A program made the translations under genes and the position numbers. The notes beneath the pieces are model-generated. The model was not told the origin of the DNA. It did no database searches and was given only the letters and a program-made list of their open reading frames with translations. A stretch of 64,000 bases of DNA from Halorientalis salina (GTDB lineage: Archaea > Halobacteriota > Halobacteria > Halobacteriales > Haloarculaceae): NCBI RefSeq assembly GCF_005049285.1, contig NZ_SOSC01000011.1, positions 1-64,000 of the forward strand, in the 5' to 3' direction. Each line of letters opens with the position of its first letter. Position 1 is the first letter of the stretch. Shown here piece by piece: positions 43,288 through 50,324 of this stretch.

Positions 43288-44511
43288 TCAGTCTTCCCGC
43301 TCGTCAGTCTGACCGCTCTCTTCTGTCGTCACGGGTTCCGGTTCGCTCCCGTTGGAGCCGTGCTGTTCGTCGTCGCCCTGCTCCTCCCACGAATCCCGGA
43401 GCGAAACGTTCGTCCGACGTGATAGCAGGGGCGACCACGACACCGGGCCGGGTTCCGGCGGTGCATCGTAGCGATACACCAGGTCCTCGACGGCGACGAC
43501 GTACTCCCCGTCCCCGTCCTCGATAACCCGTCGGTCGCTGTCGATCGCGATGTCGACGAGCCCTTCGAGCGTCTCGACCTCGACGACGGCCCCGTCGAGT
43601 GCCCCCTCGGGCAGCCGAGCGCGCGTGATCCAGTCTCCGAACTCGGACCGAGCCGTCTCGTAGGTCAGGTAGGCTCGCTCCCGCTCGTCGAGCGCGAGCC
43701 GTCCGCGGTACTGAGCGGTCCCGAGCGCGAGCAGCCCACCGATCCCGACCAGCCCCAGAGCCGGTCCGCCGACCCCTCGGAGCGGTCCCGGACTGTTCGC
43801 GACCTCGACCGTCCGGGTCTGTCGGGTCGTGTTCGTGACCGGACCGGGATCGGTGAGCCGGTAGACACTCCCCCCAGGCGAGATCCCGAGTTCGTACTGC
43901 TGGTCACGAGCGACCTGCCCACCGTTGGCTCGCCCCTCCGTCTCGATGTCGGCGACGACGCTCGTCTCGATGGTTCCGGGCGTCCCGCCGACCGTCCGGT
44001 CGAGTCGCTGTGACTCGTTTCGCAACTGCGTCACGTTCTCCGAAAACGACAGTTGCAGCGATTCGCCGGGCGCGAGCGAGGCTCGTTCCCGATCCAATTG
44101 CCGGGTCACTCGCCAGTACTCGACCGTCGATCCCTCACCACCGGAGTCGACCGCTGCGATGACGAGCGTGAGCGTCCCGTCGACAGTCACGTTCCCGGTT
44201 TCCGTCGCAGTGTATCGGTACGTGAACGTGCCGTCGAGCGTCGGCGTGATCCGACTGAAGTAGGCGTCCCTGTTCGAGAGCGTCGTCCCCTGCGCAAACA
44301 CGGGATTTGACCGCTGGACGGTCGCGTTGTGCGTGAACTCTCCCGTATAGGTCGCTTCCGGCCCCGGTTGCTCGGCGGTCGACGTGTCCGACTGGGCGTA
44401 GGCCGTGTAGGTCATCCCCGCCCCGGCGAGTGCGGCCACCAACAGAACGGTCGCGACCACCCCGAAATTCGAATCGAGGACGGCCCGTATCCGTCGTCCC
44501 CGTCTACCCAT
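43288..44511 (-). CDS. DUF5305-like membrane protein of a surface-protein export cluster
   Basis: This 407-residue protein has an N-terminal span (FGVVATVLLVAALAGAGM), an extracellular domain of about 200 residues starting YTAYAQSD with TYTGEFTHNATVQRSNPVF and FTYRYTATETGNVTVDG, a second span (GGPALGLVGIGGLLALG), and a cytoplasmic acidic tail. The pattern matches DUF5305 proteins, often encoded with signal peptidases. It follows the signal peptidase gene on the minus strand, 53 nt apart, and may help assemble or anchor the exported DUF1102 proteins. Confidence 0.75.
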   Translation of the reverse strand: MGRRGRRIRAVLDSNFGVVATVLLVAALAGAGMTYTAYAQSDTSTAEQPGPEATYTGEFTHNATVQRSNPVFAQGTTLSNRDAYFSRITPTLDGTFTYRYTATETGNVTVDGTLTLVIAAVDSGGEGSTVEYWRVTRQLDRERASLAPGESLQLSFSENVTQLRNESQRLDRTVGGTPGTIETSVVADIETEGRANGGQVARDQQYELGISPGGSVYRLTDPGPVTNTTRQTRTVEVANSPGPLRGVGGPALGLVGIGGLLALGTAQYRGRLALDERERAYLTYETARSEFGDWITRARLPEGALDGAVVEVETLEGLVDIAIDSDRRVIEDGDGEYVVAVEDLVYRYDAPPEPGPVSWSPLLSRRTNVSLRDSWEEQGDDEQHGSNGSEPEPVTTEESGQTDERED

Positions 44512-44564
44512 TGTGTCTCCTGTGCCCCGCCGTTCGGTCGGATGATCCGTTCCCTGTCATGGTT

Positions 44565-45704
44565 TCAGTCCAAGAGGCCGCTGTTCGCTGTGTCGCTGCG
44601 CGTCCGCGAGCGGAGGCGACCGGTACCGAGGACCGCCACACCCCCCAGATAGAATCCTCCGCCGAGGAGCGCGTCGATGGTGAGGAGGGGGAGCCACGGA
44701 TGGATCTCGTACAGCGTCCGAATGGTCGACGTCGGCAGGAGTCCCAGATACCGATGCTGAACGACGAACTCCCGGTAGTATCCGGTTTCCGGCGGTGCCG
44801 AAACGGTGAGCGACGCGTTCCGCGTCGTTCGCGGCGGGACGTGGAACTCCGTCGGCTCGACGGCCACCCGCTCGGTCGACGGCTCGACGAACGCGACCAC
44901 CGGCACGAGGCCACCGTTAGCCACCGGATACGTGGTGGTCTCGCTCGTCCCCTGTTCGATGACACCGAGCCCCGGCGAATCGGACTCGGCGCTGACGAAC
45001 CCGATCTCCTCCTGGCCGGCCGGTACGACCATCGCCGCGGTCGCCGAGAGCACGACGAGCGCCGCGAACCCGGCCACGAGAAGTCGGCTACTCGTTCCCG
45101 ACGCCCGCGTCCTCGATCGCTCTCGCCGGCGACCCGTTCCGCCTCCCAGCCACAGGTCGAGCAGGTACGCTATGACCGAGAGGCCGAACAACAGGTACGC
45201 CAACCCCTGTGTGCCGAGCAGCGAGCGCGTACCGAACAGCCCCGCGAGGCCCGTCTGGACACTCCCGAGCGCGTTCTGCGTCCCGGTGACGGCCGTCCCC
45301 AGCTCCGGGATCACCAGAATCGAACCGCCGGGCTGCCAGACCGTCGCGACGACCTGCGCATCTTTGACCGGGGGCTCTTCGTTGTCCTGATCGGTAAAGG
45401 GGTTGGCGTCGCCTTTCGTGACGTACCCGTCCTCGGTCTCGGAGACGACGCGGTGTGTCGTGAGTCCACCCCCGTGGAGGGATTCGGCCTCGAACACGAC
45501 GACGTCTCCTTGCTCGATCGGCCCCGAGACCGCCGCCGGGATCGCAACGAACCCGTCGCCCGGCTCCAGTGCCGGTTCCATGCTGTCGGTCGTCACGTAC
45601 CCCAACAGCACGGGCTGTCCGAGGATCTGGCCCGCGATCATCGCGACGACGAACACCACAGCTACTGCTTCGAGGAGGTGCCCGACGCGCTGCCACCCAC
45701 CCAT
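44565..45704 (-). CDS. Signal peptidase I with additional C-terminal membrane domain
   Basis: This 379-residue protein has an N-terminal span (LLEAVAVVFVVAMIAGQIL), then the catalytic domain with Ser in YVTTDSMEPALEPGD, His in LTTHRVVSE and Asp in YVTKGDANPF, the archaeal/SipW-type S-H-D signature. After about residue 150 come further spans (LGTQGLAYLLFGLSVIAYLL and LLVAGFAALVVLSATAAMVV), an exposed beta-rich domain and a last span. Normal signal peptidases are half this size. Its neighbours are three exported DUF1102 proteins, so it is likely a dedicated processing enzyme. Confidence 0.85.
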   Translation of the reverse strand: MGGWQRVGHLLEAVAVVFVVAMIAGQILGQPVLLGYVTTDSMEPALEPGDGFVAIPAAVSGPIEQGDVVVFEAESLHGGGLTTHRVVSETEDGYVTKGDANPFTDQDNEEPPVKDAQVVATVWQPGGSILVIPELGTAVTGTQNALGSVQTGLAGLFGTRSLLGTQGLAYLLFGLSVIAYLLDLWLGGGTGRRRERSRTRASGTSSRLLVAGFAALVVLSATAAMVVPAGQEEIGFVSAESDSPGLGVIEQGTSETTTYPVANGGLVPVVAFVEPSTERVAVEPTEFHVPPRTTRNASLTVSAPPETGYYREFVVQHRYLGLLPTSTIRTLYEIHPWLPLLTIDALLGGGFYLGGVAVLGTGRLRSRTRSDTANSGLLD

Positions 45705-45780
45705 CGAGAGACCTTAGAACGACGACAGTAAAAGATGTGTCGACAGCATCATTTTTCGAGCGGCTCTCGGCCACCGAGTT

Positions 45781-47340
45781 TCAGTCCCACTGATAGCCCG
45801 CGGATTCGATCTCGTCGCTCGGGTCCCCATCGCCGACTCTGTTCTCGATCGCTACCGGATCGTTCGCTTCACCCGCGTCGTTGTCCCGGAAGTGACAGCC
45901 GTCGGCGACCACGCTACCGGTTTTGCTATCGAGCTGCTCGATTCCGTACTTGGTGTTGCCGACGATGTTCGAGTCAGTGATATCGACGTCGACTTTGTCC
46001 CCGTCGATTACGATGCCGGAAAAGTTTCCATCTGGTGACTGTCCGTTATCCAGTATTGACGAATTCTTTATATCGGCATCGTAACCGACACCTCCGAACT
46101 TTATTCCGGACTCGGAATAAAACTGTATTGTCGACTGACCAATCGTCGCAGAAGAAGTTACGTTAACTTTAATTCCTGGAGTGTCCGCTTCATTTGGCCC
46201 CGCATCCTCCCGTGCCTTGATTAACGACGATTCGATGTTCAGTGTACCAACTTTATCGAGTTTGATACCATGGGTTAAGTAAGAGATATTACAGTTAGAG
46301 ATAGTAACATTGGATATATTAGAACCACTGCACAGGATCGGGTATGTATTACTATGAGTGATTTCAACATTCGATAAAGTGAGAGAGTCAATATCTGCAT
46401 TATACATTTTCATAGCCCGATTTACGTCCATAACACAGTTTTTCACCTTGATAGACTCGGTACCGGTTCCATGCAAATTATCGGTACCCCCGCCAACAGA
46501 GAGTGCATCTGTCGAAGTATTCGGAAAACTAAGATCTTGTAATGTTAGATTGAGGCCTTCGGGAATCCAGGGTACTTTAACAGTCTGCTCGATGTTTGGC
46601 TTTCTTCCGTCTGCCCCTTTGATTGTCAGATCGGATTGGACTTCATCTACCCAAATACCAGAACCGCTATACGTGCCATAGTCGTGAACGAGCACGGTAT
46701 CACCATCCTCGGCGTTCTCTACGGCTTCGTCGATCGACGAGTACTCACCACAGTCGTCGGCGTTGCTCACCAGCAGTTCGTTCTCGCCAGCGACCGGACA
46801 GGTGACACCGACGCCATCCTCGGACGCGTCAGCGTGGACGGTCACGTCGACATCCCAGGTATCGGTATCCAGCCCGTGCGTGTCGACGTACACGCCAAGT
46901 GAAACCCCGGCACCCGGGTCGATTTCGACGACACCGTCGCCTTCACCCTGAAGCTTCGAGGATTCCGCACCGTCCTGGTAGAACCAGAGGTTGTCATCGT
47001 CGAAGGTCGATCCCGAGACCGACAGCCAGACGCCGACCGGCTGGGTGCCCTGATTCGTCACCTCGAACACGTCGTCGAATCTGTAGGTCGAATCCGTTCC
47101 GAGGCCACCACCGCCGGCATCGGTTCCGGTGAAATCGAGTTCGAGTTGTCCGTTAGTCGTCGTTGCGTATGCGCCGTTCGGGCCGTCGGATGGCGTCAGC
47201 TTCAGGAACGCCGCGTCGTCGTCCGCGACGCTCACGGAAACGGACCGCTCGGCACTGACGCTCGTGAACGCGCCAGTGCCGAGGATGCCGCTGCCGCCTG
47301 CGAGCCCCCCGACCCCGATGAGTAGTTTGCGTCGTCTCAT
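45781..47340 (-). CDS. DUF1102-type exported protein fused to a right-handed beta-helix
   Basis: This 519-residue protein begins MRRRKLLIGVGGLAGGSG with a twin-arginine-like signal and the shared GTGAFTSVSA region, then a DUF1102-like domain (RSVSVSVADDDAAFLKL). From about residue 195 (EYSSIDEAVENAEDGDTVLV) it is a parallel beta-helix with PbH1-like repeats such as IKVKNCVMDVNRAMKM, NVTISNCNISYLTHGIKL and VDITDSNIVGNTKYGIEQ. DNA for residues about 230-440 is strikingly AT-rich while the N-terminal part is GC-rich, so the helix was probably acquired separately. It should be surface-exposed. Confidence 0.8.
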   Translation of the reverse strand: MRRRKLLIGVGGLAGGSGILGTGAFTSVSAERSVSVSVADDDAAFLKLTPSDGPNGAYATTTNGQLELDFTGTDAGGGGLGTDSTYRFDDVFEVTNQGTQPVGVWLSVSGSTFDDDNLWFYQDGAESSKLQGEGDGVVEIDPGAGVSLGVYVDTHGLDTDTWDVDVTVHADASEDGVGVTCPVAGENELLVSNADDCGEYSSIDEAVENAEDGDTVLVHDYGTYSGSGIWVDEVQSDLTIKGADGRKPNIEQTVKVPWIPEGLNLTLQDLSFPNTSTDALSVGGGTDNLHGTGTESIKVKNCVMDVNRAMKMYNADIDSLTLSNVEITHSNTYPILCSGSNISNVTISNCNISYLTHGIKLDKVGTLNIESSLIKAREDAGPNEADTPGIKVNVTSSATIGQSTIQFYSESGIKFGGVGYDADIKNSSILDNGQSPDGNFSGIVIDGDKVDVDITDSNIVGNTKYGIEQLDSKTGSVVADGCHFRDNDAGEANDPVAIENRVGDGDPSDEIESAGYQWD

Positions 47341-47429
47341 AGTCCTCCGTGCGTGCCCCTTCCCTGGGGAAAGCCCACCGGCGGAATCGAACCGCCGGCT
47401 CGTCCGTGAGGACGAGTCGCCAGCGTGGG
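47341..47429 (-). other. Intergenic double hairpin with a tRNA T-arm-like loop
   Basis: Between two DUF1102 genes the minus strand forms CTCGTCC/GGACGAG (4-nt loop) and CCGGCGG/CCGCCGG with the 7-nt loop TTCGATT, identical in form to a T-psi-C arm, then a G/C-rich third palindrome CCCC/GGGG. It may act as a transcript-processing, stability or attenuator element controlling stoichiometry of the two surface proteins. Confidence 0.5.
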
Positions 47430-48002
47430 TTAGTTGTCCGCGTCCGCGTTGATGATCAGCGGTACGTCGTACGTGTTGACGCTGACATCGTGGGTATCCA
47501 GTTGGACGCCACAGCGGAGCGTACTCCCGACGCCGAGTGATTTGTACGGATCACTCTCCGTCAATATCTCCTTCTCGTCCGTCTCTGGGTCGAAGATGGC
47601 GACCGATGGCTCGTCGGCGTCCGAGCCGTTCGTGCCGTAGACGTCGACGGGTTGGGTTCCCTGGTTTATGACCTTGAACAGGCCGTCGCCAGGGTTGCCG
47701 CCCGCGTCGGCACCGAATTTGTAGACCGAGTCCGGGGCGACGCCGTCGGGATCCGTGGGGTCGCCGCTCGGATACTGGCCTTCGTCGTCACTCGGAATGT
47801 TCAGTTCGAGCTTCCCGCCGTCGGTTACCGACCGTTTCCCAGTCCCGAGTTCCTGAAGTTTCAGGAGTGCGTCGCTGTCTTCCTCGACGGCGACTGTGAC
47901 GGTTCTATCGGCGCTGACGCTAGTGAACGCACCGGTGCCGACGAGCAGGCCGCTACCCGCGGCCAAGCCGCCCATTCCGGCGAGGAGGTTGCGTCGTTTC
48001 AT
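47430..48002 (-). CDS. DUF1102-type exported protein
   Basis: This 190-residue protein starts MKRRNLLAGMGGLAAGSG with RR motif and GTGAFTSVSA, the presumed signal peptidase site falling after SVSA. The mature part begins DRTVTVAVEEDSDALLKLQE and is a compact beta-rich acidic domain (FKVINQGTQPVDVYGTNGSD). It is the second of three same-strand paralogues; spacing to the first is 35 nt. The fold resembles SipW-dependent TasA-like secreted proteins in its processing region and hydrophobic beta strand after cleavage. Confidence 0.8.
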   Translation of the reverse strand: MKRRNLLAGMGGLAAGSGLLVGTGAFTSVSADRTVTVAVEEDSDALLKLQELGTGKRSVTDGGKLELNIPSDDEGQYPSGDPTDPDGVAPDSVYKFGADAGGNPGDGLFKVINQGTQPVDVYGTNGSDADEPSVAIFDPETDEKEILTESDPYKSLGVGSTLRCGVQLDTHDVSVNTYDVPLIINADADN

Positions 48003-48037
48003 GTTTTCTTCCGAGACGCTCGTTTGCTACATTCCCA

Positions 48038-48757
48038 TTAGTCGTCAGATCCGCTCGACAGGGAAGCAGCGTACTCGGCGTCAGCGGCGATGTTCATCGA
48101 GATCTCGCCATCAAAGTTACTACCGCTGTCGTCAATGTGGAGCCCGAAGTTGAGGGATTCGCCCGGCGCAAGCGTGAAGTCCTCCGGTTCGTAGTAGCCT
48201 GCTTCTTCCGGGAAGGCATCTCTGTTGTGTGTCTCTTCTTTAGTATCATCCAGGTATACACTGGTCAGACTCAGGGAGTCGGCGTCAGGATAGCTGACTC
48301 GGTGGGGAAGGCTGCTTGCCTGCGGGTCGATGTAGAGATCCGAGCTCCCGTCTTCACCCACCGATTCGGGACTGACGCTTGTCGGCGGCACGTAGACAAA
48401 GACGTTCTGCGTCCCGTGATTCTTGACTTTGAAGATGTTGAGAATCTGTGTCACGGCGTTCTTGTTCACACCAGCGGGACTCCCACTGTTGTCCCCGTTG
48501 ATGTCATTTCCGTCGAGGTTGACTCGAATCGCACTCCCACTCTCGTCCGCATACACACTGTTTGACAGCGTGGATTCTGCGTCGAGAGCGAGCAGTGCGC
48601 TGGCGTCGTCTGCAACCTTCACTTCCATCGTACGGTTCGCGGTCACACTCGTAAACGCGCCTGTACCCATTGCAGCTGCCGAGCCGGCAGCGAGCGATCC
48701 TGTGCCGATAAGGAATTTGCGTCGTTCCATAGTTGTCTCACGCGCACCCACCCCCAA
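48038..48757 (-). CDS. DUF1102-type exported protein
   Basis: This 239-residue protein starts MERRKFLIGTGSLAAGSA, with a good twin-arginine motif (RRKFL), GTGAFTSVTA and NRTMEVKVADDASALLAL. The mature domain contains FKVKNHGTQNVFVYVPPTS, matching the equivalent NQGTQPV segment in its paralogues, and DFTLAPGESLNFGLHIDDSG near the end. It is the first gene of the minus-strand surface cluster. Several paralogues with conserved N-termini and divergent bodies suggest subunits of one surface structure or variants under diversifying selection. Confidence 0.8.
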   Translation of the reverse strand: MGVGARETTMERRKFLIGTGSLAAGSAAAMGTGAFTSVTANRTMEVKVADDASALLALDAESTLSNSVYADESGSAIRVNLDGNDINGDNSGSPAGVNKNAVTQILNIFKVKNHGTQNVFVYVPPTSVSPESVGEDGSSDLYIDPQASSLPHRVSYPDADSLSLTSVYLDDTKEETHNRDAFPEEAGYYEPEDFTLAPGESLNFGLHIDDSGSNFDGEISMNIAADAEYAASLSSGSDD

Positions 48758-49155
48758 GGCGGGTTGCGCTCATTCCGTCAATGGTCCCTACCCATCATTG
48801 TATTATCACGCTTGAACGTGACCGGGCCACACACCGGCTCAGATTCGAAGAGTGGCTGAAACCCTTCTGGCAGCGTTATCTTCCCCTACAACACTCACCT
48901 GAACGGCCCGTAATCGGTCGTTATTTGCTCGATACAGCCAGCTAACGGGAGCGACAAGGTCTAGAGAGCCCAAAGCTCGAATCCGGGTCCCAGGGCGCAC
49001 CTAATCCGGGCGTTCTTTCCGGTTCCTGTCGAACAGACGAAAAGCATTTTTGTGTTGCTGAATTATCACCAACTGGCAACCGAAACCGAGGTCGGGTATT
49101 CGGGGGTATCTATGGGGTCACGCAATCACTATTCGATCCAGTCCGAGATGCATGG
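48758..49155. other. Divergent regulatory region of the surface-protein cluster
   Basis: About 400 nt without a convincing gene, between the minus-strand DUF1102 operon and the plus-strand regulator gene. It includes AT-rich stretches (TTGTATTATCA near 48798, GCATTTTTGTG and GAATTATCACC near 49050) that could serve as promoters. Some frames are open but have no haloarchaeal protein character. Confidence 0.55.
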
Positions 49156-49848
49156 ATGGGGCCGGTCGTCGAACCGAACCGTGTCCGTACGACGGCCGCG
49201 AACCGACGACGGGGGGCACCTATCGTGAGCAAAGCCGTCTCCACCCAGTCAGAGGTGGCCGACGACGAGGGGAGTACAGCCACAGCGCCCGGAGGCGAAA
49301 CGAGTACGGGACCCGTCTCAACCGACGAGGCGTTCGAGCTGTTGAGCAACCAACGGCGCCGGTACACGCTCCACCATCTCAAGCACAACGGCGAGGCGGT
49401 CGAGTTGGGAGAGCTGTCGGAACACGTCGCATCCTGGGAGAACGGAACGGCCGTCAGGAACGTCGATGCGGCCCAGCGCAAACGGGTGTACACCTCGCTT
49501 CAGTCCCACCACCTGCCCAAGATGGACGAGCAGGGAGTCGTCGAGTACGACGAACGCGCGGGCGTGGTCGAACTCACCGAGGAAGCAGGGGAACTCGACA
49601 TCTACCTCGAAGTCGTCAGCGGCCGCGACGTTCCCTGGAGTCAGTACTATCTCGCGTTGTCGGCGGTCAACGCGGCGATCGTCGCCGCCGTCGCCGTCGG
49701 TGCGTGGCCGTTCAGTATCCTGCCCGACATCGCCTGGGCCGCCTTCGTCGTGACGACGATGGTCGTCTCCGCGGCCGTTCACATCTATCACGACACCTCG
49801 ATGCGACTCGGGACGAACGCGAAACCGCCGGAGATCCGCGAGCGATGA
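49156..49848 (+). CDS. DUF7344-like HTH regulator with two membrane spans
   Basis: This 230-residue protein has a winged-helix domain (STDEAFELLSNQRRRYTLHHL, the haloarchaeal DUF7344 opening, then VYTSLQSHHLPKMDEQGVVEYD) and two C-terminal spans (YYLALSAVNAAIVAAVAVGAW and AAFVVTTMVVSAAVHIYHD). It is probably a membrane-tethered transcription factor. The start may instead be the GTG at 49225 (VSKAVSTQSE). Its stop overlaps the next ATG by 4 nt, tying it to a DUF1102-like exported protein and making it a candidate regulator of the surface cluster. Confidence 0.8.
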   Translation: MGPVVEPNRVRTTAANRRRGAPIVSKAVSTQSEVADDEGSTATAPGGETSTGPVSTDEAFELLSNQRRRYTLHHLKHNGEAVELGELSEHVASWENGTAVRNVDAAQRKRVYTSLQSHHLPKMDEQGVVEYDERAGVVELTEEAGELDIYLEVVSGRDVPWSQYYLALSAVNAAIVAAVAVGAWPFSILPDIAWAAFVVTTMVVSAAVHIYHDTSMRLGTNAKPPEIRER

Positions 49849-50324
49849 GTCGATTGCGACGGCTCTGTCTCCTCGTCGGGTTCGCAGCCGTCGTGCTCGC
49901 CGTCGGGACCGGTTCGTTTAGCGCGTCCACGTCCGACCGGAGCGTCGCCGTCGACGTCGTCGACGACGAGGACGCCATGCTGGGTCTCGTGGCTGAACAC
50001 CCCGAGCGCGCGGTCGGGCCGAACGGGACCCGCACTCACTCGGAAGTACCGGTACTCACCGTGACGAACCGGTTCGGCTCGCCGATAACGTCGATCAGAG
50101 TGACAGTCGTTTCGGCGGAGACGCCGGCAGCCGTCAGTGTCGATCAGGTCGAGTTCAGCGCGGACAGTCTCGGACCGGGTAAAGCGGGGACCGTCGACGC
50201 GACGGTCACGTGTGCGGACGCGGGAACCGCCTCGGTGACGGTCCGAATCGAGACAGAAAGCGAATCGGCGTCGGTCGAGACGACGGAGACGGCGACGGTC
50301 GAGTGTACGCGATCCTCGACGTGA
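49845..50324 (+). CDS. DUF1102-like exported protein coupled to the HTH regulator
   Basis: This 159-residue protein starts MSRLRRLCLLVGFAAVVLAV, followed by GTGSFSASTSDRSVAVDVVDDEDAM, the same processing-region pattern as the three minus-strand paralogues. The mature part is a short beta-sandwich-like domain (VPVLTVTNRFGSPITSIRVT, GPGKAGTVDATVTCADAGTA). It is translated from the same message as the HTH membrane protein, which suggests a sensing or assembly-checkpoint role. Start chosen at the ATGA overlap. Confidence 0.8.
   Translation: MSRLRRLCLLVGFAAVVLAVGTGSFSASTSDRSVAVDVVDDEDAMLGLVAEHPERAVGPNGTRTHSEVPVLTVTNRFGSPITSIRVTVVSAETPAAVSVDQVEFSADSLGPGKAGTVDATVTCADAGTASVTVRIETESESASVETTETATVECTRSST

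Follow-up and report, generated by a model that had tools for sequence, protein, structure and literature searches.

In phage tailspike and tail-fibre tips, beta-helix heads are swapped behind a conserved attachment module. Among archaea, Tat-fimbriae are reportedly a recently described type of surface fibre. PMC12687288 cites the primary description of these fibres, and literature searches, with that description outside their scope, returned no earlier account of Tat-fimbria tip diversity. In the bacterial TasA system, subunits dock by strand complementation, as stated in PMC9674648.

Here we analyse a gene at 45781-47340 of a 64-kb stretch of Halorientalis salina DNA (the window), which comes third among the pilin-like genes in a cluster of the Tat-fimbria ("tafi") kind. 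With the haloarchaeal tafi (9p0a of Natrinema sp. J7-2; TafA/C/E/F) this locus shares a Tat-type signal, a module of similar sequence and possibly similar fold, and a pilin gene cluster; it differs in that its cluster proteins score below the equivalog cut-offs and TafF was not found. TafC-like relatives carry a LamG payload, in place of which the 519-aa protein encoded here carries a beta-helix. As in Bacillus TasA/TapA/SipW and the bundling pili (7ueg), a beta-sandwich pilin module stands beside a SipW-like peptidase and strand complementation is likely; unlike in those systems, the signal is of the Tat type and a large exchangeable C-terminal payload sits on a minor subunit. The parallel with tailspike exchange would involve a cellular fimbria rather than a virus particle. 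What is ordinary about the gene is the fusion of module and helix; what is unusual is that both of its AT/GC seams lie inside the helix. The features discussed below are as follows.

43288..44511, minus strand: DUF5305 membrane-type protein, 407 aa (E 2.3e-49)
44565..45704, minus strand: SipW-like / archaeal signal peptidase I with C-terminal extension, 379 aa (TIGR02228, 49.5 bits, cut-off 51.85)
45781..47340, minus strand: tip-like protein, 519 aa, with Tat signal, DUF1102/TafE-like pilin module and right-handed beta-helix
45781..46020, minus strand: GC-rich last coils and C-tail of the same gene, GC3 0.78 (change-point fit)
45901..46788, minus strand: right-handed beta-helix payload, residues ~185-480 (profile and structure model)
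46021..46707, minus strand: AT-rich block within the helix, codons 212-440, GC3 0.41 (change-point fit)
46801..47250, minus strand: DUF1102/TafE-like pilin module, residues 31-180, GC3 ~0.76
47251..47340, minus strand: putative twin-arginine type signal region, residues 1-30, MRRRKLLIGVGG...GTGAFTSVSA (motif reading)
47430..48002, minus strand: pilin-like gene, 190 aa, TafE/TafA-like, under the NCBIfam cut-off
48038..48730, minus strand: pilin-like gene, 230 aa, TafE-like, under the cut-off, GC3 0.66
49156..49848, plus strand: DUF7344 regulator of winged-helix type, 230 aa, oriented divergently to the pilin genes (E 1.4e-30)
49845..50324, plus strand: small taf-like protein, its frame overlapping the regulator gene at that gene's end (E 0.003)

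Results

A pilin module in a Tat-fimbria cluster

All three pilin-like proteins of the cluster show an RR motif in the alignment, an assignment made by motif only, and all three match TafE in NCBIfam (E 1.1e-16, 1.5e-15 and 1.6e-19); their TafE/TafA matches span E 1e-8 to 1e-19 and lie below the equivalog cut-offs throughout, the score against the TafE equivalog NF052522 being 61.1 bits, under a cut-off of 155 bits. The 519-aa protein has no match to the TafC equivalog NF052521 (cut-off 410 bits) up to E 1 and no LamG domain in Pfam, which instead places DUF1102 at residues 39-173 (E 3e-9). Its signal region aligns with the N-terminal end of 9p0a, the tafi pilin of Natrinema. A phmmer search of the PDB with the protein returned that one chain, at E 9e-12 and across residues 1-113; the structure library lists it as the tafi pilus of Natrinema sp. 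J7-2. A model of the isolated module (pLDDT 73) also places 9p0a first (Z 9.6, rmsd 2.9, 122 aligned), with the P. calidifontis bundling pili 7ueg next among pili (Z 8.7) and other Ig/PapD-like folds at Z 8-9. A strand predicted at residues 33-39 falls outside the 9p0a alignment, which starts at model residue 14, and is suggestive of a donor strand only.

Gene order in the cluster resembles that of relatives. TafF (NF052523) was not found in the genome or in the cluster (best E 0.5), and since no pilin-like protein reaches a Taf cut-off either, this may be an unusual or even a defective fibre. The TafF-like gene absent from the cluster at 43288-50324 is present, below cut-off, in the clusters of two same-genus genomes (G001 and G002).

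Within the genus, the cluster site is a variable position between conserved flanks. Both flanking genes are present in all seven other genus genomes examined, and the cluster lies between them in two, G001 and G002; G003, G004 and G007 show just the ferredoxin, G006 has two unrelated genes, and in G005 a DUF5305 gene stands alone at the site (L108:2689-3903), an apparent remnant that suggests cluster loss in some lineages. The G001 tip at the same locus has a module 54% identical to that of the 519-aa protein and a payload with no detectable homology to it (only fragments at E 0.05-0.16), and the G002 tip was left out of the comparison, its stretch reading as N.

The payload is a predicted right-handed beta-helix

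Beyond the module, Beta_helix PF13229 matches residues 343-490 (E 9.3e-14, 51.8 bits against a cut-off of 25.9), and a PHROGs search with the gene gave no match. The helix model spans residues ~185-480, is well predicted to ~380 and weak after 430, with pLDDT of 52-67 at 430-480, around the second seam, and below 40 thereafter. In structure searches it matches right-handed beta-helices at Z 20-24, the best being PL6 alginate lyases, inulin fructotransferases and mannuronan epimerases (Z ~22-24), and phage tailspikes and the adhesin PfbA score similarly to the beta-helix enzymes. Because the modelled helix resembles many such enzymes and adhesins equally, its role may be binding, catalysis or both. 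That the payload would be a displayed polysaccharide lyase or epimerase instead of a binding head, which fits either account of the composition given below, appears quite unlikely to us even with these enzyme families at the top of the structural matches: right-handed beta-helices, tailspikes and PfbA included, all score alike, the match to AlyGC falls on residues 439-727 of the AlyGC chain, and identities are mostly 10-17%. The likeness to PL6 is one of fold only.

Both composition seams lie inside the helix

A two-change-point fit to third positions divides the gene into codons 1-211, 212-440 and 441-519, with GC3 of 0.763, 0.410 and 0.785, respectively. The cuts fall after codon 211 (support 203-226; seam support 46662-46731) and after codon 440 (support 437-445; seam support 46006-46030), with a log-likelihood gain of 35.2 against a largest permuted value of 12.1 in 200 permutations. 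Over codons 227-440 the observed GC3 is 0.388, compared with 0.855 expected from the same amino acids in local codons, which rules out amino-acid composition as the source of the AT content. Locally rare codons account for 75 of 214 positions there versus 20 of 226 in the N-part; their share in 35 reference genes is 6%. The interval 46020-46660 also has the lowest 642-bp GC among 4,730 windows sampled over 242 kb of the organism's own genome. An earlier note on this DNA had described this beta-helix stretch as strongly AT-rich and written in locally rare codons, and the window GC, rare-codon count and sharp change points bear that out. The coordinates it gave were sound. Its description of the N-terminal half as having usual GC-rich third positions can be refined: the pilin module, at 0.76, is somewhat below the 0.85 +/- 0.04 of reference genes, and the neighbouring pilin-like genes are low as well (0.66 and 0.78).

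The same note equated the AT-rich part with the beta-helix. The block does lie within the helix, but it is not the whole domain: the helix extends past it at both ends, the first coil, the last coils and the C-tail being GC-rich. The reading frame runs on unbroken across both seams, as does the single predicted helix; the seams lie ~20-45 codons within the payload at one end and ~40 codons within the modelled helix at the other. No tandem repeats were found behind the block, and with two short direct repeats as the only others, DNA repeats or tandem coil duplication were rejected as its origin.

As a separate observation, a 16-nt inverted repeat with 15 matches and a 55-nt spacer (arms 46003-46018 and 46074-46089) has one arm at the second AT/GC seam. 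There are two such inverted repeats in the 64-kb window and one in 158.5 kb of other own sequence, and the one at the seam could be a recombination footprint or chance.

The module carries exchangeable payloads in relatives

Sixty loci hand-picked among the matches listed, mostly long frames and not a census, yielded 84 long proteins with the module, and the 78 of at most 1000 aa were scanned for domains (DUF1102 in 41, DUF4350 in 14, SNase in 11, Beta_helix in 10, Laminin_G_3 in 7, LTD in 7, PKD_4 in 4 and CARDB in 3). The TafF profile matched 12 of the 78, so some of the 84 would be TafF-like anchors rather than tips. This amounts to a plug-in design: the payload attached to the module can be a beta-helix, LamG, GIFT plus nuclease, LTD or PKD. 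Clustering sorted the 84 payloads into 36 clusters, of which 23 have a single member. At one locus (L086, genome G289) two proteins have modules 93% identical and unrelated payloads, the likeness stopping at the module end; in a pair from two genomes (L085/L088) modules 83% identical bear unlike payloads, counted as exchange; and GIFT/nuclease-type payloads 63-66% identical occur on modules 35-39% identical. One protein with a LamG-type payload (L045) matches TafC over the payload.

The architecture of module plus beta-helix recurs within the order in L033, L063, L064 and L069, with modules 49-55% identical in the proteins read and helices that have no detectable sequence relation to the one studied here. 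L063 (536 aa, module 55% identical, GC3 0.87/0.90) and L064 (608 aa, module 51% identical, GC3 0.82/0.90) are uniform in composition, with no AT-rich core. These two, together with the varied payloads of relatives, indicate that joining this module to a helix is ordinary and that such a fusion can have an even composition. The notion of a unique fusion is therefore not supported: at least two relatives have the same architecture and uniform composition, the very finding that the earlier note had named as refuting it, albeit with helices that are not detectable homologues. The related proposal, that a surface protein had gained a new domain, survives in part: this is a surface protein and payload exchange is general in the family, but the fusion of module and beta-helix is widespread.

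Payload GC3 is lower than module GC3 in 53 of the 84 proteins (Wilcoxon p 0.005), so that a mild contrast is common. In the 519-aa gene the payload drop is 0.23 and the drop in a 150-codon core 0.37; each is exceeded by one of the 84, the former by L085 and the latter by L082 (towards the end of its ORF). Payload GC3 lies well under that of the module in L035 (-0.22), L085 (-0.27) and L084 (-0.21). L082, L092 and L089 come near or above the 519-aa gene in change-point or core-drop scans, and may reflect start or frame choices, the shift lying towards the frame end in L082 and L092 and near the start in L089.

Several other payload types emerged from the survey. L037, L046, L070, L073, L075, L077, L092, L093 and L095 have related payloads of GIFT-domain plus staphylococcal-nuclease type, with the domains read directly in L037 and assigned by payload homology in the others; judged from sequence, the group is apparently a nuclease displayed on the fimbria module. 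L039:6075-8072, L041:6741-8936, L083, L084 and L097 combine a membrane-anchor-like N-terminus, long lysine-rich payloads and a hydrophobic stretch, a subgroup that, by eye only, looks like polymorphic-toxin architecture; the payloads of L039 and L041 have no Pfam domain. L078, L079, L080 and L081 are giant module proteins of ~2,400-2,900 aa.

Origin of the AT-rich block

Searches for a payload donor came back empty for the other 391 of 392 order genomes (E <= 1e-6), for plasmids, phages and viral contigs and, with the whole protein, for genome contigs; the block alone, searched against 392 phylum genomes at E <= 0.001, retrieved the own genome and one 31% match at E 1.4e-4. Codon usage in the block fits a low-GC haloarchaeon (G065, locus 47% GC) far better than the own genome (-1.17 vs -1.84 per codon), and that of module and tail fits the own genome. 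Flat base frequencies at 40-45% GC describe the block just as well as the G065 codon table, which makes drift in place possible. Net charge per residue is -0.057 in the block and -0.167, -0.290 and -0.177 in the flanks; the block is thus the less acidic part, with a charge inside the range of ordinary window genes. Short intergenic gaps have 57.6% GC (28 gaps, 2,497 bp) and ORF-free stretches of the own genome 45% (1,796 bp, biased low). On balance, codon usage, gap GC and charge together favour foreign coils over drift without proving them. For the low-GC source suggested in the earlier note, the composition does look foreign, but the searches of order genomes, plasmids, phages, viral contigs, genome contigs and phylum genomes yielded no donor.

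Discussion

By combining profile searches, structure models, composition and a survey of relatives, we arrive with moderate confidence at the view that the 519-aa protein is a minor subunit of a Tat-fimbria, probably sitting at the distal end as its tip, in a family in which payloads are exchanged, and that its central helix coils were replaced from a low-GC relative. The position of both seams inside the helix suggests such a replacement rather than fusion of a whole domain, and an exchangeable tip plus a likely core replacement should supersede the account of a simple fusion.

Alternatively, the whole helix payload could have been imported from a low-GC source, its ends later turning GC-rich through conversion with other tip genes or through amelioration. 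Relatives do show exchange where module and payload meet, and the payloads of L035, L085 and L084 with their GC3 well under that of the module are in keeping with such an event; we nevertheless regard it as rather unlikely, because the seams are sharp and lie inside the payload and helix at both ends, and amelioration would not spare a 229-codon core. Nor does it seem likely that no transfer took place and that an exposed region, evolving fast under weak constraint, became AT-rich by drift in place as codon selection relaxed. The reduced GC3 of all the cluster's pilin genes relative to the genome (0.66-0.78), the mildly lower GC3 of payloads in relatives and the low GC of the low-biased sample of ORF-free stretches would all agree with drift, but short gaps lie well above the block's GC3 of 0.41, the seams are sharp, and the block stays open and helix-like. 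An assembly chimera is very improbable: although the assembly is a draft of 23 contigs, the frame is unbroken and a single helix runs over both seams, the genome is 98.1% complete and 1.2% contaminated, and the gene order is shared with relatives.

Under the preferred reading of an exchanged tip with replaced central coils, the 519-aa protein would be exported folded via Tat and be cleaved by the neighbouring SipW-like signal peptidase. By analogy with TasA and archaeal bundling pili, the module may then dock onto the fimbria by beta-strand complementation, and docking would display the beta-helix outward at the fibre end, most likely as a head that binds glycans or surfaces. We infer an adhesive role for this fimbrial tip. 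In the family, payloads are traded between modules and genomes, and here recombination with a low-GC relative most likely replaced the central coils (codons ~212-440) and left the capping first coil and the last coils GC-rich.

More tentatively, Tat-fimbriae could possibly be a general haloarchaeal display platform whose tips are traded as cassettes, with inner helix coils that can be replaced while the caps are kept, yielding new specificities in the manner of tailspikes. The survey supplies concrete tips for expression, nuclease-bearing ones included. If the tips are interchangeable cassettes, they would offer a ready system for testing recombination within a repeat domain, and haloarchaea could use them to change what they bind, be it surfaces, mating partners, DNA or glycans.
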